NCBI RefSeq assembly: GCF_019649055.1 | Contig: NW_026570426.1 | Location: 83,296-147,295, forward strand | Reading direction: 5' to 3' | DNA: 64,000 nucleotides | DNA from: Paramacrobiotus metropolitanus | Lineage: Eukaryota > Tardigrada > Eutardigrada > Parachela > Macrobiotidae | Part shown: piece after piece, positions 37,542 through 51,033 of the stretch | How positions within the stretch are numbered: position 1 is the first letter of the stretch | Layout of the letters: every line of letters begins with the position of its first letter | The notes under the pieces: generated by a model | Databases searched by the model: none | Told to the model about the DNA's origin: nothing | Seen by the model: only the letters and a program-made list of their open reading frames with translations | Translations under genes and position numbers: made by a program

Positions 37542-38104
37542 CTAATTGTAGCATCCGGATTCGATAGGCGCCTCGCCGGGCACGAAGACAGCCAAGACAC
37601 GTGTATAGTACCGATATCGAGCCCGGGACTTGTCCTCGTTGCGTCCCTGGCACTCTTCCCTGCCGTTGATAGCCCTGATACTCTCTCCGAATTTCCCCTC
37701 GGCCACTCCGGGATGATTATGCACCGCGGCGCCCCAGTACCAGTAGGCGGTGGCCCAGGCGACGTCCTCGTCGTCCGCCACCTGATCCGGGTTCTCCACC
37801 AAGCGGTCATCGTGGTACAGCGCCTGCGAGGCCTTGCGGTAGTTGTCCTCCCACGTCAGCTGCATGTAGCCGCGTCCGTAGTACTTCTCGTACTCCGGTT
37901 GGGGCGAGATCTGCTTCTTGTAGCGCAGTCCGCCGGATTCGTGGAGAATGTTGGCCAGGAACATGGCCAGCTCGCGGCGGCTGGTGATTTTGCCGTTGGG
38001 AGCGCCTTTGGCGAAGCTCTCGTACTGCGCGTCCGTCGGCTGCGGGAGCCGGCGCTGGTTACGGCCTGCTGGAATTCGTCTCTGCTGACCAGATATCTAG
38101 ACAT
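37542..38104 (-). pseudogene. GH19 chitinase-like gene, intronless, one frameshift
   Basis: GH19 enzymes hydrolyse chitin or related glycans by inversion. The N-terminal frame starts MSRYLVSRDEFQQAV (38104 down). After about 16 codons the family match continues in another frame (PTDAQYESFAKGAPNGKI, then RRELAMFLANILHESGGL) to the stop at 37542. HESGG carries the expected first catalytic Glu, YYGRGYMQLTWEDNY is the family's substrate-cleft motif, and LVENPDQVADDEDVAWATA and INGREEC follow as in GH19 relatives. About 185 residues, the catalytic core only; no signal peptide is visible. The one-base shift lies near 38045-38060. The gene is much more GC-rich than its surroundings and has no introns, which suggests transfer from a microbe or a retrocopy. 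It could be functional if the shift is a sequence error. Confidence 0.75.
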
Positions 38105-40433: not shown

Positions 40434-42430
40434 ATGCCTCATGGTGCTTCGAACCCGGCATCCAGCGGCAGGAAAATCGTGCTGGTGATCGGTGAAACTG
40501 GATCAGGAAAGTCTACGCTGATCAATTATCTCACCAACTACTTCAAAGGGGGAAATATTGCAGCACCTCGAATCGCTATTCCGACTGAGTACTATTCGAA
40601 GCCCACTGAGGCATACCAGTACCACGAAGCAAATGTCAGTAATCAAACTGCCAGCCAAACCGAAAAGTGGTAAGTCTTAAGACTTAAGGATATTGGCATG
40701 GTACCCCTAGATCCCTAGAGAACCGCGTTGATTAGGCTCTAAAAATACCAGAACACTGTTCTGTTTGGTAGCCGTGAAAGTCTGCCGTCATTAAACCTGA
40801 ACTAAAATGGTTGCACAATTTTATTCTGTAATAATTTTCACTGGGCAAAATAAAATTTTGGATTGTTCTGCTTTATATTTATCATTTCTTTTCTGTGCTT
40901 CTTAGACGGGCCACGTTTATCAAATTGCTTTTATATTATGGCAGTTAGACAGAACAGACTGATGTTGTAACACTCTCGTTTCTCGTTAATATTATTAGTA
41001 TTCTAATATTGCAACTGCAGTAGCCACACTCCTTTAGAAGAAACGTTAATAGGTTATTGGAAAGTGTCACTGTTAATTTTGAAAACCTTTTTCTGGTTTG
41101 GTTTAACGAAATAAAAGTTAAAGTTTTATTGAGTTAAATGTTAAGAATAATACTTTACGTTTGTAATACAATATTATTGCAAATTGTCGTATGGCCTCAG
41201 GTAAAAGGCATACACGGCGGGTAGCGATTTAAAAAAAATTACTACAAATTACCTTAGCTTCCATCCAGCTTTGTGGAGCTTGTGGACAAGAAGCAGAAAC
41301 AAAAGACGCCCACAAACGCAGTCAACGCGTTTCTCTAGGGGAAGTACTCGTATTGTATTTCATGCAATACTGTCGGTTAATAGAATATTTTCCGCAAAAT
41401 GCCGGGAAAAAAATTGCAGAAAGCGAATTGTCGGGCAGCAGTAAATCGAAGGTCAATAAACTGATGTGCTACCGGTAATGGTAGCTAATCCAGTGGTGTA
41501 CAATCGTAATTTTCTAGCAAACCTGCACGCATCCAAAATTAATGCGCAACCTAAAAGGGAAAATTAGGTATTATACACTGGCAAGAAGTAATCACATTTA
41601 ATGCTGGGCTGTACGAGCTTTCGTTAAAAAATCCCGTTTTTCGAGAAAAAACCGTTACGCAGATTGAACAGTCCTCTAATATTTGCAGTTCATAAAGATC
41701 ATGTGAAAAGAGTGCACAGTTCTTTGGGCGGGTTTAGCACTTCCTTCTTTTCAGTTAGCAATTGGGACTTACGTTAGTTCAAATCCTTTTCAATTTCTAC
41801 GGGTAAAAACAAATGGAAAAACGGCACCTTTTCAAACGATTCGATATACCCAGTTCTTGATCACCCAGATTCTTATTTTATCAAACGCTAAAATTTATTT
41901 GCAGCATGGATTACGATTTTGAATCGGGAACAGCATCATATCGTTTCATCGACACTCCAGGAATGAGCGATAGCAGGGGCGTGGAACGGGACGAAAAAAA
42001 TATTCAACAGATTCTCCAAGCAGCCCAATCAGCGGGAACTCTGTCGGCTATTGTCATCGTAATTAACGGCACACAATGCAGAGGCACCATCAATCTGCGC
42101 AATACGCTTACCCGACTGCGAGGTATAACACCGAACGCTTTAACGGACAACCTGATCGTTGTGCTGACAAGCTGCGATTCGACTAATTTCAAGTTCAAAC
42201 TTATGTCGCTGCATCCGTGGACGCTCAAAGCGGAGAACATTTTCGCCATGAACAATGCGGCGTTGAGTCAAGATCCGCTGTTAATGCTGGAGGGCGACCA
42301 CCGGCAAGGTAATCGAACGCTCCTAAACTACACATCAGATAGAATGATCGAATAGTTGTCTATACAACTAAAAAACGTTTTTTGTCAGTAATGGAAGCTT
42401 TGTGGAAGAAATCCATGGCTGAAATCAATC

Positions 42431-42438
42431 GGTTCGTC
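42431..42438. repeat. Left 8-bp target-site duplication of the KDZ-like element
   Basis: GGTTCGTC, identical to 50141-50148. Both flank the 7702-bp element and are part of the host GTPase codons Arg-Phe-Val. Confidence 0.85.
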
Positions 42439-42452
42439 CTCTCCTCTCGAGA

Positions 42453-42481
42453 GAATGTCCAAGTTAGGACATTAGTGGTTC
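42453..42481. repeat. Left conserved TIR block of the KDZ-like element
   Basis: 29 bases starting GAATGTCCAAGTTAGGACAT, exactly reverse-complementary to 50103-50131. The block itself contains the imperfect palindrome GTCCaagttaGGAC. The outermost 14 (left) and 9 (right) bases are less well matched. Confidence 0.85.
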
Positions 42482-42880
42482 AATGGTTCTGAACCAATGG
42501 AACCACACTTGAACCAAGTACGTTCTCACTTACCGACACGCTGACACACTACCGCTGTACCCCGTGAACTAACGGAACCAATGGAACCACATGGAACCCC
42601 AATGGAACCACAAGCGAACCAAGAGCACTCTCACTTGCATGCACGCTGTCCCACTACCGCTGTACCCCGTGAACCAATGGAACCAATGGAACCACATGGA
42701 ACCACAATGGAACCACAAGCGAACCAAAAGCACTCTCACTTGGATGCACGCTGTCCCACTACCGCTGTATCCCGTGAACCAATGGAAGGAATAGAACCAC
42801 ATGGAACCACAATGGAACTTCAAGCGAACCAAGGACACCCTCGCTTGCCGACTCGGCTGGACACCACCTGGGTATCCCAT
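42482..42880. repeat. Left subterminal repeats (about 4 x 105 bp)
   Basis: Units run from GGAACCAATGGAACCACATGG to CCCACTACCGCTGTACCCCG and are rich in TGGAACCA. They keep a long frame open by chance because the repeat avoids stops (repetitive Met-Glu-Pro). I treat this as transposase-binding DNA and do not call it a gene. Confidence 0.8.
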
Positions 42881-43099
42881 TTCGAAAAACAAACACTGAA
42901 ACATTAACTTCGGCCACTTAAATTTCGGCTGAAATACTACGTCCATCTTTCACTTTGGCCACCATTCACTTCGACCGCAGTGCATATCGGGCGACGCTCG
43001 CTCTGGCTTGCCCACATTACCGTCGTCATACAACAAGCAATGAGCCTACCTAACAGTCAAATGCTTATGAACCGCAACAATGTCCGAATGAAATATCTG

Positions 43100-43715
43100 A
43101 TTGATACTAAGAACAACAGGAAGTGAAGGCGAGAAACCTAATAAAATCCAAACCTGAAAGAGGAAGAATCACGAGAAAGCATAAGAAAACTCTAAACATA
43201 AGAACGCCTAAGAAAACCTAAAAAATTCAAGTTTCCAAAATGTTCAGTTGCGGAAATAACGCGGACCGAAATTAGTGCTGGCCCAAGTGAGTTTCGGCCT
43301 CAGTGACTATGTCAGTCTATGTGCAGCCGAAGCGATCTTGCACGGCAACCACCTTATAACCAAACTTAAACCACGTGAGTATACGTAATTATTCTCAGGT
43401 TATATTATGCGCTTTGGTTAGGCCATTTTCCCATTACAATTCGCTTTTTTTCATTTATTTATTCAGGTTACAAATATGCTTCGGTACCCTCTCGTCTCTG
43501 CCTAATCATCGAAGGGTAATAAACGTGCGAAATAAAATAAACGCCACCAAAGATGACAGTTTCTACTTCTTTGAGAAACTAAAAACGTAAAACAGCGAAT
43601 ATATTCGCAACTGATAATTCTGCTCATGATTTAACCACTTCTGCAAAGTACAGTAGCAGTAGCCGATGCTCAGAAGTATTCGGATTTAGTACGTAATATC
43701 TGTTCAAAGCATTTA
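43100..43715. other. Non-coding interior of the KDZ-like element
   Basis: AT-rich interior with short frames only. No supported feature. Confidence 0.35.
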
Positions 43716-44115
43716 TTAGTCCAAAGGCATCTGACTGCTGGCGCTGTCCGCGGACACCTTCGCTAAGTACTTGTTACGTCTCGTAATCAGCCGGTGCAGG
43801 AAAAAGAGCTGGCGATACTTTGGCATCTTGAGCAGTGCAAATTTATAGCGTCCCAGCCATGCATTTGTTTGCTCACACGCCTGGGTATTTGCTGATTTGA
43901 ATGTTGGATGAGTTTCCATAATCCGAGCCGGATTATAGTAGGTATGATACTGATGGCCGACGTGGTTGTCCAAGTGGAATTTATCGATTACCTTTCCTAC
44001 GCCGCTCCACATGGTGTCGAAGGGCTTTGGTAGTTGAAGTGAAAGGACGACGTGTAACGTCTTCAGAGAAACGGGAATGTTGGGTGTTGGGAGATACTGG
44101 GCTACGTTAAGAAAG
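43716..44115 (-). pseudogene. Second KDZ-family transposase, C-terminal exon only
   Basis: Begins after a CTCTCCAG acceptor and runs to a stop at 43716. It contains KVIDKFHLDNHVGHQY, a Tyr-rich stretch and NTQACEQTNAWLGRYKFAL. These correspond one to one to KVIDRFHMRNHKPECF and NTESAEQVFSQLRNL of the transposase on the other strand, including the Glu of the catalytic triad. Overall identity is low, so this is a different KDZ lineage and not a duplicate. The upstream exons that should hold the two catalytic Asp residues are not found, so the gene is probably a remnant from an older element or a second, truncated transposase gene. Confidence 0.6.
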
Positions 44116-45088
44116 CTGGAGAGCACACGGGATCGTGGTGAATTTTATTAAAATTTAATAAACACTCCGCACACTGTAAAAACCGACTAACTCCCGAACT
44201 GCACTTCCGAGTCGTATTACCCGCGCCAAGCTGATCGGTCTTTGTGTTGGGTGAGTAAGCTGGTCAGCCTGCAACGGGGGTTTGGTCTGAGAAGCTGATT
44301 GGCCTGCAACTGTTTGGTACAAAGTTATGCAAAGCTGATTGTTTCGCGGTTGAGTTTGTACATAGGCGTACGGGATTTTGATTTCTCCACGAAAGTGGGA
44401 AGAAAAAGGGAATTTGAGTCGCGCCAACGGCACAAGGCCATCGGGCAGATTTTGATTATCCTGACCACTTAACAGGCGTGCCTGTGATGCCACTGGTGGG
44501 TGACGATTGTCCCCGGGCATTTTAAGATGGAATTATTGATTTTAGTGGTCGAGAAGTTTAACCTAAAATTTATTTTGAGTCGCACCAACGTCACAAGGCC
44601 ATCGGGCGGTTTTTTGGAGATTTACCGAATGCAAATGGCTGATTTCCGCTAGAATAAATGTACGCGGCTGTATTTTGATTTACCAGGCACGTTCGTGCAC
44701 CGGTCGAAGTAATTTTGATTCGCTTTCTGATTATGTCATTGGGCACATGCGTGCGCCAATAGTGGAATGAGTTGATTACGGAAGTTATGCAGAATTGATT
44801 TATGTGGAAAAGTTTGAGTATGTAAGTTGGTTTGCGCGAAACGTCTCTACAGTGCAGTGTGCAAACAGAAGAAATTCTAACAAAATTGGGATAAGTCTAT
44901 TCTACATAAAAATAAGATCTATCGAAATTTATAACTAGAAAAAACAGGAACAAAATATAAGATCCATATCCACGCGCGTTTCCAGATCCACGCGTCCAAA
45001 TCCGCTTGACCACTATGAGTGCACTTTGGTCCATTCCGATCCGAGACAGCGACTATGAGTCTGCCTGTCTATTTATCCGTCGGATGAG
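44116..45088. other. Non-coding interior with a short internal duplication
   Basis: AAGGCCATCGGGC with its flank GAGTCGC-CCAAC occurs at about 44413-44446 and 44576-44610. A minus-strand open frame (44520-44155) shows no family resemblance and low complexity; I do not call it. Confidence 0.35.
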
Positions 45089-45890
45089 GCGCTGAAATCG
45101 TCTCCCTGCTGAGGGAAACTTCAGAAGCGGCAGTAAAGGCATGGTTGAACGAAAAGCCGGAAAAGAATTCCAAAAGAGGCGCAGTCAACATCACCGTAAA
45201 CACGTTCTGTACGGGAAAGCCGGCTGCTGGAGACGCGATGCCAATAACACTGCTGGGAGAGAGCTGGCAATTGATTAATGACGGTGAGATTTCAAACTTA
45301 GTTTCAAAACAGTAGCGCAATAATGCTACGGCAGAACTACATCCTTTTTGCAGAAGCAACCCGGCAGAGCCATGATCCAGCACAACTGAAATGTCATATT
45401 GCCAACCGAGCAATTTACAAGCGTCTTCTTCAAGGACGGAAGTGTTCAGAAGTAGCTACCGATAATCAGGTAGTTATGATTTGGTCGAAAACAATTATTT
45501 AAAAACTTACGGTATTATTTTGTGTCGTTCGAGTAGAAGTGTAGAATTTAATGTGAATTTCAGAGTTCTGGTGGCAATAAAGGAAATGAGCGGTCATCGT
45601 CGGTCGAGGATGCAGAGCAGAGTCGGAAGCGACCCCAGTCGCCGGATCCGACCCTCCAGGGTCCCGAGACAGATGCTGGAGATGTGTCCGCTGTCAGCGG
45701 AAGCACTCCTGCCGAAGAGGTGGTAACCGCTTACGGTCATCCGGCGCCTGGGTTCGATATTGCAAACGAGTTCGTGCAAGAAGACGTTGTTGCTGCTACA
45801 GCGGCCGCCGCGAAGAAAAAGCGCCGCTGCACGAAGCCGCCAACTGCTGAAAGCGGAAGGGTTTTGCGATCAAAATCATCGAAAGTTTAA
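45089..45890 (+). CDS. Accessory gene of the KDZ-like element, unknown function, basic NLS-like tail
   Basis: Three exons with consistent phases: about 45089-45283 (AEIVSLLRETSEAAVKAWLN ... GESWQLINDG, donor GTGAGA); 45354-45469 (TRQSHDPAQLKCHIANRAIY, donor GTAGTT); 45564-45890 (Ser/Glu-rich, then AAAAKKKRRCTK and a stop after RSKSSKV). An in-frame stop precedes the first exon, so a start exon upstream must exist but was not located. The product is about 210 residues or more, hydrophilic, with a KKKRR nuclear-localisation-like cluster. I do not recognise the family. Its position between two transposase genes inside the element suggests a role in transposition or in handling host chromatin, but that is inference. 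Confidence 0.5.
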
Positions 45891-46485
45891 TTATTAACAA
45901 GCTGTTTTTCGTCCATTGTTGAAGTTTGAGTTTACACATCCCCAAGCAAACAAATTGTTAGAAAGTTTTAACCAGCTATGGTTGCTAATGAACCCTTCTT
46001 AATGTATATTTATTTTAACATACAAGCACGTCATAAGACCTTCAATGACAATAATGATTATGGGTGTTTTTCAGTGTTTAAAATTTATCACCTTAACGAG
46101 TGTAAACCTGCGGAAGTATACTGATCTTGGCTGCTGCTTAATAAAAAGGCAACATTTCTGTTTATTTCAGTGAAAACAATGCAAACGAAGGGAACGAAAA
46201 AGAACGCAGGAATTAAGGAGTAAAAACAATAAACAACATACAAAATGAACAAAACAAAGTACAAAAATGAAAAAATAAAAAAGCAAGTAATAATGCAGTT
46301 TGTGTGCACTACGTCGCAACAATGCACACCGCACTTTCAACGACGAAAATAGCATGGGGTGCACCCTTTCGCCTTGTAGCGAAGATATAACAAAATTTTG
46401 CCACAATCTACATAAAAATTAAGGAGGTAGATGCGGTTTCTGTACGCCATATTAGTTGAAGATCAGCGTTTGTTATAAGTAAAAC

Positions 46486-48579
46486 ATGTCCGACAAGAAA
46501 ACCTTGTTTATACTAAACAATGGTTTTGATATCGCGCGGAAGACTGCTCGAGCACTGCACATGTGGCCGGAGCTCAGTCCCAAGTTTCCCGCCATTTGGA
46601 AGGTTTGTGATGTTTCGGTATATATATAATTACTAACGACGTTGTTGGTTTGCGTTTATCTTGCAGAAAATAACGACACATTTGAACTGCAACGAATCCA
46701 CTCTACTGCGAGTTGTAAAGGAGTTGAGGGCCCTTCCCGAAGTATTTGAAATGTTCGCACGGAAAACCATCGATCCTGTTATTCTTCTACCGCCCACTGA
46801 CAAGTGTTTGGTCGACGATTGCTGTCAAATCCGAAACACCAGGAACGGCCAACACGGAAACCCTTCTCTCTACACGCATCATGACCCTTCAGATTTAGTT
46901 AGAAAAATATAGATATTTTTTTGACTACGGCTATAAAATGTGCAACTATTTTTGTAGTGTACTGTCAGCGACATCGATGGCACGCATATAAAGTGCTGGA
47001 AGTTCAACCTCCGTTGCCGCTCCTGCAAGAGCTACTACCGCTACTCAACGTTCTTTCACTCGGAAAAAGAAAAATTTTTCTTGTAGGAGAACCCGAGACC
47101 TTTTGTGGAAATTTCCCGTGAATGGTGTTGCACAAGGCGGCTCTGTGCTTTGATAAAAACCGACATGTGAGATATGACACACCGACGCTAAACTAACTGT
47201 GTAAATTTAATTACAGTTCACAATTGGTTTAATGTTTTATTTCAGGTACTTCAAACAGTGCAGCTTTCAGGCATTTTCGTCTTGTGTCAAAAACGCGTTC
47301 GAATTGCTGAGGGTATGAGCTTTGCTGCTTTGGGATACATTCAGGATATATGAAATGTGTACTGTAAAGAGCTTTGTAGATTACAACCGGAAGCAATTGG
47401 CCGAAGCATTCTTTAAATACCACATTGAGCAGTATTTGCGAAGTCTTGGAAAGCTGAGTACTGGATTTACTGCTGAAAATGACTGGGACGAAGCGCTGAC
47501 AGAGCTGAATAAAATTCTCAGTAAGGAATTACTGCCACATGTACACCACGCGCTCTGCATAGCAAAAGGCTGCAGGGACGTTGTAGCAATGGATGGGAAC
47601 TGGAAATTCAGTCACGTCATCTGTTCCTTTCAGATCAAGGTTAGTCTTAACGCAAAATGAATGCTCCTGTAATAATTAACGCTAAAAATAATAATTTTTT
47701 CAGAAAACTCATCCCAAATTTCCGCTACTTAAATTTCCTTGCCAATGTACGGAAGAGCCGTTGCCTGGATTCTTGTATTGCAAAGCGCACCTGGTAATTG
47801 CGGAAAAAGAAGGTCTACCCGTTACTGCTAAGGCTGAGAAAACGGCGAGGCTTCCCGAAGCGGCTTTGATTGCGGCGGAAAGCGAAAGCGACACCAGCGA
47901 AATATTCAGTGCACCTCTGACTTGCAAGAAGAACTTGGGTTTGCATAAATACCTTAAATCGCGATCACGGGGATGGCTATTTTTTGTAACTGCTGGGGGC
48001 ATCATCAAAATGTTCCGACCGTTATATGTGTAAGTCTCAGGTTTTACAAAAGATATTGCTCCTAATGGAACAGGTTACTGTTGCAGGCCTGAATCATCGT
48101 CGCAAGTGTTTTTCCATACTGCTGAATATCTGCTTAAAGAGTTATCCACACGAGACCCGGCAGAGTGTTCGAAATTTACTTTATGCTATGATGACATGTG
48201 CTACTTAAACGCCCTTCGACAAGCAGCGAAAAAGTTGCCATATCCGGAACCTTATTCACAGATGTGGTTCCAAATTCAAAAAGTGATCGACAGATTTCAT
48301 ATGCGGAACCACAAGCCGGAGTGCTTTAAAAACTATAATGCTGACGAAGTGCTGGCAGCGATACATGGAGCTGAGACATCCATCAACACGGAATCTGCAG
48401 AACAAGTATTTTCTCAGCTGCGTAATCTGAAAGCTTCGCTGTTTGTCGTGGGAAAGAGAAGACAAGAATTCTTTTTGCATGTTATAAGCAGAATGCATAA
48501 TTGCCGCGTGGAGAAGTCGATGTCAAAAGGTACTTTTCCGATACATTTCAACGGGCGCAGACGTTGTAATACTATTTAG
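46486..48579 (+). CDS. KDZ-family transposase, seven exons, one in-frame TAG
   Basis: Exons 46486-46602, 46667-46897, 46958-47166, 47246-47312, 47370-47639, 47704-48029 and 48087-48579 join with matching phases to about 570 codons. A Cys cluster (CTVSD ... CWKFNLRCRSCKSYY) resembles the CxC modules linked to KDZ transposases. The catalytic core shows VVAMDGNWKFSHVIC (first Asp), a conserved SRSRGWLFFVTAGGIIKMF block, CYDDMCYLN (second Asp), IDRFHMRNH and NTESAEQVFSQL (Glu). It would cut and paste the 7.7-kb element. A TAG (47084-47086) interrupts exon 3 after HSEKEKFFL, with the same frame continuing as ENPRPFVEISREWCC, so this copy may be inactive, edited, or have an unrecognised splice. Family assignment is by motif and fits the 8-bp TSD. 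Confidence 0.75.
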
Positions 48580-48739
48580 CGATTTTCCGATGCAAAAGAA
48601 TTTTGTTTGTCGTGGAAAAGTTGCGCATGCTTTCTCTTCGGTTTACTAATGAGTGATTGTTGAGTTACTTTTGTTGAGTACTTTAGTTAGCAAAATGACA
48701 ATAATATGGTAAACAATAAACCGATAAAAATTGCGGTGT

Positions 48740-49330
48740 TCCATGAAGAGCAGTTACAAACAGCGGCTAACAGCGAAGAACAGTTAGGAACAGCGATTAA
48801 CAGCAAAGTAGAGTTACAAACATTGGCTAACAGCGAAGAACAGTTAGAAACAGCGGTTAACAGCGAAGTACAGTTAAAACAGCGAAGAACAGCTAGAAAC
48901 AGCGTAGAACAGCGAAGAACAGTTACAAACAGCGGCTAACAGCGAAGAACAGTTAGAAACAGCGAAGAACAGTTAGAAACAGCGGTTAACAGCGAAGAAC
49001 AGTTAGAAACAGCGGCTAACAGCGAAGAACATTTAGAAACAGCGATTAACAGCGAAGTGCTGTTAGAAACAGCGGTTAACAGCGAAGAACAGTTAGACAC
49101 AGCGTAGAACAGCGAAGAACAGTTAGAAACAGCGATTAACAGCGAAGAACAGTTAGACACAGCGTAGAACAGCGAAGAACAGTTAGAAACAGCGATTAAC
49201 AGCGAAGAACAGTTAGACACAGCGTAGAAACAGCGAAGAACAGTTAGAAACAGCGATTAACAGCAAAGTACCGTTAGAAACAGCGGCTAGCAGCAAAGAA
49301 CAATTAGAAACAGTTCTAAACACCGGCGAA
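48740..49330. repeat. 30-bp minisatellite in the KDZ-like element
   Basis: About 20 copies of a unit near CAGTTAGAAACAGCGGTTAA plus CAGCGAAGAA, with variants (GGCTAA, GATTAA, GTAGAA). GTTAACAGC/CAGTTAG steps give partial dyad symmetry. Both strands stay open over long stretches because of composition. It lies between the transposase gene and the right subterminal repeats. Confidence 0.9.
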
Positions 49331-49639
49331 CGGTTGCAAACAGTCGTGTACATTGGTAAACAGTAGAAATAGTTGCACTATCGCTGTTGCATTGTTGTAC
49401 GTATCTGTCACTAATGTTCGGAAGTGTGCCTACCCTCTAGATTTACCGTACCCATAAGTCACTTCTTGAATTGTAGTGGCAATTTTCGCAAGTCTGCAGA
49501 CGTTCAAAACCGAAAAGCTGAAGCCTTCGATTTTCCTGGCTAAAACGCCCGACTGCAAGGAACGGAGGCCGTACATATCCATAAACAATACTTTAGCTTT
49601 CCATTAGTACCCGGCCCACGCCGTACAGAGCTGGCGTGA

Positions 49640-50095
49640 CGCGAGTGTCGGCAGGTATAAGTGCTGTTGGTTCGCTTGTGGTTCCATTGTGATTCCATGT
49701 GGTTCCATTGGTTCCATTGGTTCACGGGGTACAGCGGTAGTGGGACAGCGTGCATGCAAGTGAGAGTGCTGTTGGTTCGCTTGTGGTTCCATTGGTTCCA
49801 TTGGTTCACGGGGTACAGCGGTAGTGACAGCTTGCATGCAAGTGAGAGTGCTGTTGGTTCGCTTGTGGTTCCATTGGGGTTCCATGTGGTTCCATTGGTT
49901 CCATTGGTTCACGGGGTACAGCGGTAGCGACAGCTTGCATGCAAGTGAGAGTGCTGTTGGTTCGCTTGTGGTTCCATTGTGATTCCATGTGGTTCCATTG
50001 GTTCAACTGAATCCGTTTTACGTTAGCAGGCTTTTTGCTTGGTTCCATTGGTTCTGAACCCAGTGAACCGCTCGTGTCCTGGCTTATGGGTTCAT
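49640..50095. repeat. Right subterminal repeats (about 4 units, inverted relative to left)
   Basis: Units such as TGGTTCCATTGGTTCCATTG, GGTACAGCGGTAGTG and GCATGCAAGTGAGAGTGCTG are the reverse complement of those at 42482-42880. This symmetric arrangement supports the element boundaries. Confidence 0.8.
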
Positions 50096-50102
50096 TCCTA
50101 TG

Positions 50103-50131
50103 GAACCACTAATGTCCTAACTTGGACATTC
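50103..50131. repeat. Right conserved TIR block of the KDZ-like element
   Basis: Exact reverse complement of 42453-42481, ending GGACATTC, nine bases inside the right element boundary. Confidence 0.85.
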
Positions 50132-50140
50132 TATGGGAGA

Positions 50141-50148
50141 GGTTCGTC
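50141..50148. repeat. Right 8-bp target-site duplication
   Basis: GGTTCGTC, identical to 42431-42438. The host codons AGC TGT ATT TCT follow directly in frame. Confidence 0.85.
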
Positions 50149-51033
50149 AGCTGTATTTCTAAGCTTGATGCAAAATCAACCGCGGCCTTTGCGGATATAG
50201 AACGTCATCGCAACAATCTCAAGCATGAGCTGAACCAATGCAAGCAAGAAATCGATAGGCTTCAAAGCACAAGGGAGGAACTGGTAAAGGCTGAAAAGGA
50301 TCACGAAGGCGCTAGAGCTGATGCTAAAAAGAACGGCGGATATAACCGCGGAAAAAAGACCATTACAAAAGTAAAACTTGAGCCCGCAGATTTTCCTAGC
50401 ACCGTGTGTATGCGACATGACGACGGCGTATGCCACGAAGGCTGTGCACTAAACTATACGCCAAAGACAGGAGATAATACGTTTGCCGGTTGTGCCTGCA
50501 TTATGAAAAGCGGTGTCTGCGAAAAGTGTGGATGTGGACCCGGCCAGCATTATCACGAAAAGGTCAAGGCAGTTATAGTCACGGAATATGTGGATGATAT
50601 TATAGAGCAAATGCAGAAAGACTATAACGAAGCGATGGGACGTGCCAACAGTTATGCAAACGAAACCAAGAAATTGCTATCGCGCCACGATTTGGTGCAG
50701 GTTAAGCTGCAAGAAAAGCAGACTGCAGCCGAAAATTGTATTTCGGAGTTGCATAAAATTTGCGGTTCCTTTAACTTTACGGATGAATTTAGCGGAATTC
50801 TGGAGTGCATGGAAGCTAACGCTAAAACACTGAAGGATCCGGATAATAAAATTCAGGCGGATAAAATAATTGCAACTTTGAAAGAACTCATCAAGCGGCT
50901 GCAGCAACCAAATTTTGAGAAGCCTTTGGATGAACAGTACTACAACACTTTGCAAAGAAGTAGGTGTCAAATTCTTCACTTACAATTTTGCCTCGAGTAC
51001 TACTTACTACCCCATGATAAGAAGGCTGCATGA

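Follow-up and report, generated by a model that had tools for sequence, protein, structure and literature searches.

We analysed a window of 64,000 nucleotides of Paramacrobiotus metropolitanus DNA (contig NW_026570426.1, positions 83,296 to 147,295), in which the third exon of an AIG1-like GTPase gene is interrupted by a DNA transposon. A first-pass annotation, made from the letters alone, had described a KDZ/Zisupton-like element with exact boundaries and a spliced transposase of its own. We reach a different reading, in which we have considerable confidence: the insertion is a probably recent, non-autonomous mosaic element of the Pack type that moved in trans into exon 3 of the host gene and belongs to a KDZ-related family whose termini are asymmetric (GAGA/CATA) and whose duplications are 8 bp long. 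The genome searched was the P. metropolitanus assembly (169.8 Mb, 533 contigs); C-numbers denote contigs and L-numbers cut-out stretches. The features of the locus, with terminal inverted repeats abbreviated as TIRs, are as follows.

40434..40669, +, first exon of the host GTPase gene, with P-loop GETGSGKS; paralogs L098 and L099 are 59% identical; splice donor GTAAGT at 40670
41905..42308, +, second exon of the host GTPase gene, AIG1-like; L098 and L099 are 51-56% identical
42389..42438, +, left part of the interrupted host exon 3; in-frame ...MEALWKKSMAEINRFV, ending in the first duplication copy
42431..42438, +, target site duplication GGTTCGTC, left copy
42439..42448, +, left filler CTCTCCTCTC; no such gap in 15 flush pairs
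42449..42498, +, usual left terminus and TIR, 5'-GAGAGAATGTCCAAGTTAGGACATTAGTGG
42495..42848, +, left subterminal array of 105-bp units, 3.4 copies
43719..44144, -, what is left of the own KDZ-type transposase, its last exon; homology spans about 43714-44041
44040..44485, +, piece of foreign origin adjoining that remnant; C63:760398-760845 is 90% identical
45090..49439, +, captured C57 piece with KDZ transposase-like gene and 30-bp tandem array
46485..48579, +, multi-exon KDZ transposase-like gene within the captured piece
48745..49313, +, 30-bp tandem array, present at the C57 source too
49647..50030, -, right subterminal array, opposite in orientation to the left array
50086..50135, -, usual right terminus and TIR, inward 5'-CATAGAATGTCCAAGTTAGGACATTAGTGG
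50136..50140, -, right filler, inward TCTCC
50141..50148, +, target site duplication GGTTCGTC, right copy
50149..51033, +, remainder of host exon 3, 33-35% identity to C6 and C25 paralogs; 51033 is the end of the open frame, the true end of the exon not being fixed

The insertion in the host exon is real. The 8-bp word GGTTCGTC stands at 42431-42438 and again at 50141-50148, as perfect on both sides as had been claimed, outside the TIR pair (42452-42498/50086-50132, 87% identity) and the subterminal arrays, and long inverted subterminal arms (136 nt at 98%) lie directly inside it. The word is not rare by itself, with four exact matches in the window against a mean of 1.65 expected and 6 of 100 shuffles reaching four, so its position is what counts. 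Removal of the element and one copy of GGTTCGTC leaves exon 3 as an open frame, the splice phases of exons 1, 2 and 3 (from 42389) match, and tblastn alignments run ungapped through the SMAEINRFV/SCISKLD junction in four paralogs, of which two lie on C25 and one each on C6 and C69. Thus the in-frame join of MAEINRFV to SCISKLD and the agreement of splice phases put forward in the first-pass annotation are borne out, as is its general description of a KDZ-related DNA transposon with TIRs and 8-bp duplications that interrupts the coding sequence of a GTPase gene, here called AIG1-like.

That name for the host gene is a fair one, chosen because the Pfam AIG1 match on exon 2 scores 22 bits, under the 27-bit cut-off; the label 'immune-type' of the first-pass annotation goes further than this match. 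A protein search with the host gene gave five matches, namely the window gene and four paralogs at 25-35% identity, and found no uninterrupted copy in the assembly, where runs of N limit the search. The knock-out on this haplotype that the first-pass annotation put forward is thus not supported. The insertion apart, the reading frame is open through host exons 1-3. The host reading frame runs 17 codons into the element and then meets a TGA; the joined frame of 445 residues would lose everything from residue 152 on, and the GTPase part would stay. A recent insertion is probable on three counts, namely the perfect duplication, the open frame of host exons 1-3 and a divergence of about 3%, counted in substitutions, between the captured piece and its source.

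The termini of the family, GAGAGAATGTCC... and ...GGACATTCTATG, were read from other copies in the genome, where the 22-base core occurs at 80 places with at most one mismatch and its reversed control at none. We audited 29 end pairs (the window and 28 others), chosen by similarity to the ends of the window copy or to the core, and all rates given here describe that sample. The pair on C439 was left out because the contig stops 2 nt outside the core, and C305:27468 because no partner core turned up in its cut stretch. Ends at C123, C284, C57:240k, C170, C7:800k, C36:612k and C21:845k are unpaired and stand outside the 29, no further core having been found within 4.7-9.7 kb beside them. In 24 of the 29 pairs the core is bordered on its outer side by exactly GAGA at one end and exactly CATA at the other. 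An exact 8-bp duplication lies flush against the termini in 14 pairs (C43, C56, C194, C48, C305s, C202, C22, C7d, C142, C103, C1a, C1b, C12 and C118) and a flush duplication with one mismatch in one more (C24x); six pairs carry an exact duplication that is displaced (window, C7c, C53, C9, C135 and C35), and one a displaced duplication with one mismatch (C21). Together, 22 of 29 pairs have 8-bp duplications, two of these with one mismatch. For comparison, mismatched flank pairs gave an exact 8-mer no more than 15 nt from both ends in 2 of 812 cases and flush in none. The window copy is not flush, as 10 nt and 5 nt of CT-rich filler separate the duplication from the usual termini. Hence the exact boundaries first assigned to it (42439 and 50140) are not supported as the usual termini of the family, which in 15 of the 29 pairs are GAGA and CATA-type ends flush with the duplication. 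By the refuting conditions that the first-pass annotation itself had set, the 8-bp duplications stand, being present in 22 of 29 pairs, and the outermost 15 nt of the element as first drawn are refuted.

A broad BLAST search for partial copies returned mostly matches to the subterminal repeats. At C7:1295582-1301392 two family copies are separated by about 1.9 kb, with the order of their ends mirrored, and of these the second alone carries a duplication, which is displaced. The right-type ends C19:1442166 (L075) and C58:895494 (L076) share the 36 nt of outside flank shown, which suggests segmental duplication or insertion into a repeat.

The interior of the element reads as a patchwork. The family's own transposase has been lost except for its last exon. 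This remnant is 82.6% identical at the amino acid level, over 109 aa, to an open reading frame (ORF) at C7:798k beside a GAGA end, and its DNA matches four loci at 77-82% identity, among them one in the C43 copy. It lacks the part holding the first two of the candidate motifs MDGNW, YDDMC and AEQVF, which were picked by eye and may form the acidic triad of an RNase H-like fold. Earlier exons of the own transposase are present in relatives at C7:798k, C43, C260 and C57:312k. The C43 copy combines such exons with GAGA/CATA ends and a flush exact duplication, C7:798k and C260 each adjoin one family end, and no core was found at C57:312k.

The plus-strand multi-exon gene, whose exon borders were read by eye, lies within a captured piece that corresponds to C57:503327-507839, with 125 substitutions in 4349 aligned positions (97.1% identity, or 93.6% counting gap columns). 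An in-frame TAG stands in the gene where the C57 source has Tyr, and the length of one putative exon differs by 1 nt. Among the matches listed, a DNA search for the captured piece found C57 and the window only. Two partial tandem copies on C57 share 598 bp upstream beyond the window breakpoint at 45090, and the outer family termini were not seen at the C57 locus; thus the window holds a fragment of that locus. A piece taken from a locus that lacks the element ends and extends beyond the piece is what defines Pack-type capture, and the C57 locus is of this kind. The source locus is itself partly tandem-duplicated (C57:496379-498806 and 502730-505173, L106; 99% identity). About 100 bp inside the captured piece (window 46026-46125) recur genome-wide at 74-89% identity, possibly as a small repeat.

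Both the captured gene and the family's own transposase point to KDZ. The KDZ profile PF18758 scores 18.6 bits on one window exon of the captured gene, below the 26.6 cut-off, and among the matches listed it exceeds the cut-off at C65 (34.2 bits), C129 (29.3) and C515 (27.0); these homologs are 36-43% identical to the captured gene, with the C65 gene at 43%. A tree of transposase proteins (10 rows, in which C65 and the window remnant form long branches) has a 100/100 split that places C65 with the captured gene and C129 and C515 with the own family. Since each side of this split holds a sequence over the KDZ cut-off, the captured and own transposases are KDZ-related and belong to different clades. 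The last exon of the own family can be aligned with the captured gene at 37% identity (E 3e-28). CxC5 (PF18718) was found in a relative and not in the window copy, at L110:3-563 (C57:310k; 29.1 bits, cut-off 26.9); this ORF lies upstream of the C57:312k exons on the same strand and was assigned to that own-family gene by colinearity. Judged by these similarities, the element may fairly be called KDZ-related at the superfamily level. Thus the spliced transposase that was to complete the picture of the superfamily proves to be a captured C57 piece from another KDZ clade, with a stop where C57 reads Tyr. The window copy has no complete transposase of its own, only a last exon beside a captured gene with an in-frame stop, and is by its coding content non-autonomous.

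We suggest that the C57 piece would have been captured by template switching during repair of an excision gap, and that a fuller relative would have supplied the transposase in trans. Several observations weigh against the Pack-type reading. The own-family exons and the window exons stay below the PF18758 cut-off, and the own remnant gives no match. The duplication is absent in 7 of the 29 pairs (C81, C7a, C55, C7b, C41, C78 and C59). Eight large paired copies were compared in full by tblastn with own and captured transposase exons: C43 alone was matched, and the other seven (L115-L121) were not. Across four copies the own gene faces now one, now the other of the GAGA/CATA ends. Finally, in no copy were intact termini, a duplication and a complete transposase shown together, and the source in trans is accordingly one that we infer.

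If the insertion were instead one autonomous KDZ/Zisupton element spanning 42439-50140, the plus-strand spliced gene would be its own transposase, and that gene does lie inside the TIRs, is KDZ-like and shares the 43% identity with the C65 gene that passes the cut-off. Its locus on C57, however, has none of these termini and continues upstream, the element holds a different, family-specific transposase remnant, and the gene carries the TAG. The C57 source, the own remnant, the tree and the TAG lead us to reject the gene as the element's own transposase, and a single autonomous element is very unlikely. Somewhat less remote, though still improbable, is nested transposition, by which a KDZ transposon belonging to the C57-type gene would have jumped into a resident GAGA/CATA element. 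A KDZ-like gene with an adjoining 30-bp repeat array would suit such an event, but the breakpoint at 45090 cuts sequence that continues upstream in both C57 copies. Furthermore, no inverted match around the C57 locus (C57:498.8-503.6k against 507.4-510.5k) exceeds 19 nt (E 1.9 or worse), and the flanks of about 30 nt at 45090 and 49439 share words of at most 5 nt. Capture by a Pack-type element thus stays the reading we prefer.

Other copies have interiors of their own. The own exons point to the CATA end in C43 and C260 and to the GAGA end in the window and C7:800k, a pattern that an inversion of interiors between the TIRs could produce. Two interiors searched (C41 and C135) match other repeats in pieces, as captures or nested insertions, and the C135 copy contains a PHD-finger ORF (L119:5496-5828; 25.3 bits, cut-off 24).

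Fillers are present in 7 of the 29 pairs, eight in all. Read from outside inward, those of the window are CTCTCCTCTC/GAGA and TCTCC/CATA. The others at GAGA are CTCTCTCTCG (C9), TCTCC (C135), TCTCTCCT (C21), TTTC (C53) and TCC (C35), and that of C7c is CTCTC/CATA. Pyrimidines make up 49 of the 50 filler bases, and TCTC, the complement of the GAGA terminus, occurs in six of the eight fillers; none of 100000 random draws from 63 flank stretches reached either the pyrimidine count or the TCTC count. The C21 filler is the least sure, its duplication matching at 7 of 8 bases, and C9 may alternatively be read as a 9+1 filler, with pyrimidines then at 48 of 50. Unless C9 is read in that way, filler at both ends is found in none of the 29 pairs but the window.

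Local fold-back alone is insufficient because two fillers sit at CATA ends, without GAGA, and a template at the opposite end would account for these. We tentatively propose, as a possibility that is on balance doubtful, that fillers at either transposon-target junction of this KDZ family are copied from the GAGA terminus, with a polymerase extending the open end on the opposite end as template inside the paired-end complex. The fillers would then be made while the end is open, before integration or during aborted excision, and copying of the GAGA terminus held nearby in the complex would give them their CT-rich sequence. Less probable is that the extra 15 nt are donor flank carried along by imprecise cleavage. 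The displaced duplications in 7 of 29 pairs, one with a mismatch, agree with that origin, which however predicts mixed composition, against the pyrimidine and TCTC counts that no random draw reached. In addition the most similar left end, C493 (95%), has ...CCAGCTTTTT outside GAGA and not CTCTC, although its partner and duplication are unreadable. Untemplated purine addition to the transferred strand, or repair after an aborted excision, may also have produced the fillers.

Inheritance of a filler within a subfamily was considered and is not shown, as nearly identical ends differ in their CT-rich stretches outside. Ends that match or nearly match the first 10 nt of the window copy (C7:800k, C284, C57:240k, C170:25k, C9, C123 and C21) are CT-rich outside, with differing lengths and sequences. 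The two most window-like left ends, C493 and C7a, are both without the window filler, C7a being an altered end with no duplication. The unpaired GAGA-type ends L034, L035, L036, L037 and L039 (C7:800k, C284:33.8k, C57:240k, C170:25k and C123:4.7k), for which 4.7-9.5 kb of neighbouring sequence gave no partner core, are CT-rich outside, over a long stretch in some.

Among the matches listed, literature searches for junction filler or extra nucleotides gave no description of filler of this sort, and polymerase extension of an open end is not described for KDZ transposition in the excerpts consulted; the 'extra nucleotides' of PMC3695323 are a nested insertion. Zisupton and a Dileera family have 8-bp duplications (PMC12730594), and the window family resembles them in its KDZ-related transposase, CxC5 in a family member, TIRs and 8-bp duplications. 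It differs in that the window copy is non-autonomous and that the outer 4 nt are not the same at the two ends (GAGA versus CATA). Kyakuja likewise has a KDZ transposase, but is reported with 7-bp duplications and no TIRs (PMC12730594), unlike the family described here. Zisupton of Pristionchus is also a multi-exon animal KDZ element with TIRs, but no duplications were detected there (PMC9297572), in contrast to the 22 of 29 pairs here. Zisupton consensus sequences are listed for tardigrades (PMC11071193), so KDZ elements are not new in this group. Gene capture is known for maize Ds elements with 8-bp duplications (PMC3260210); Ds2 and Ds-l4, of the hAT superfamily, are similarly non-autonomous, with family ends, 8-bp duplications and, in some, captured gene pieces. 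The window element differs from these in being KDZ-related and in having captured a gene that is a transposase in its own right, from another KDZ clade.

Upstream of the GTPase gene, the open frame 37542-38096 (-) matches class I chitinase GH19 (59.5 bits, cut-off 25.5).

The results place flush and filler-bearing insertion scars side by side, in one animal genome, for a little-studied transposon superfamily. They also describe, in an animal, a KDZ-type element in which little of the own transposase is left and part of a gene from another KDZ clade is present, a warning that a transposase enclosed by TIRs may be foreign to them. With the filler pattern, end processing by KDZ transposases becomes testable, and if the recurrent filler is truly copied from GAGA, that processing would be readable from genomic scars.

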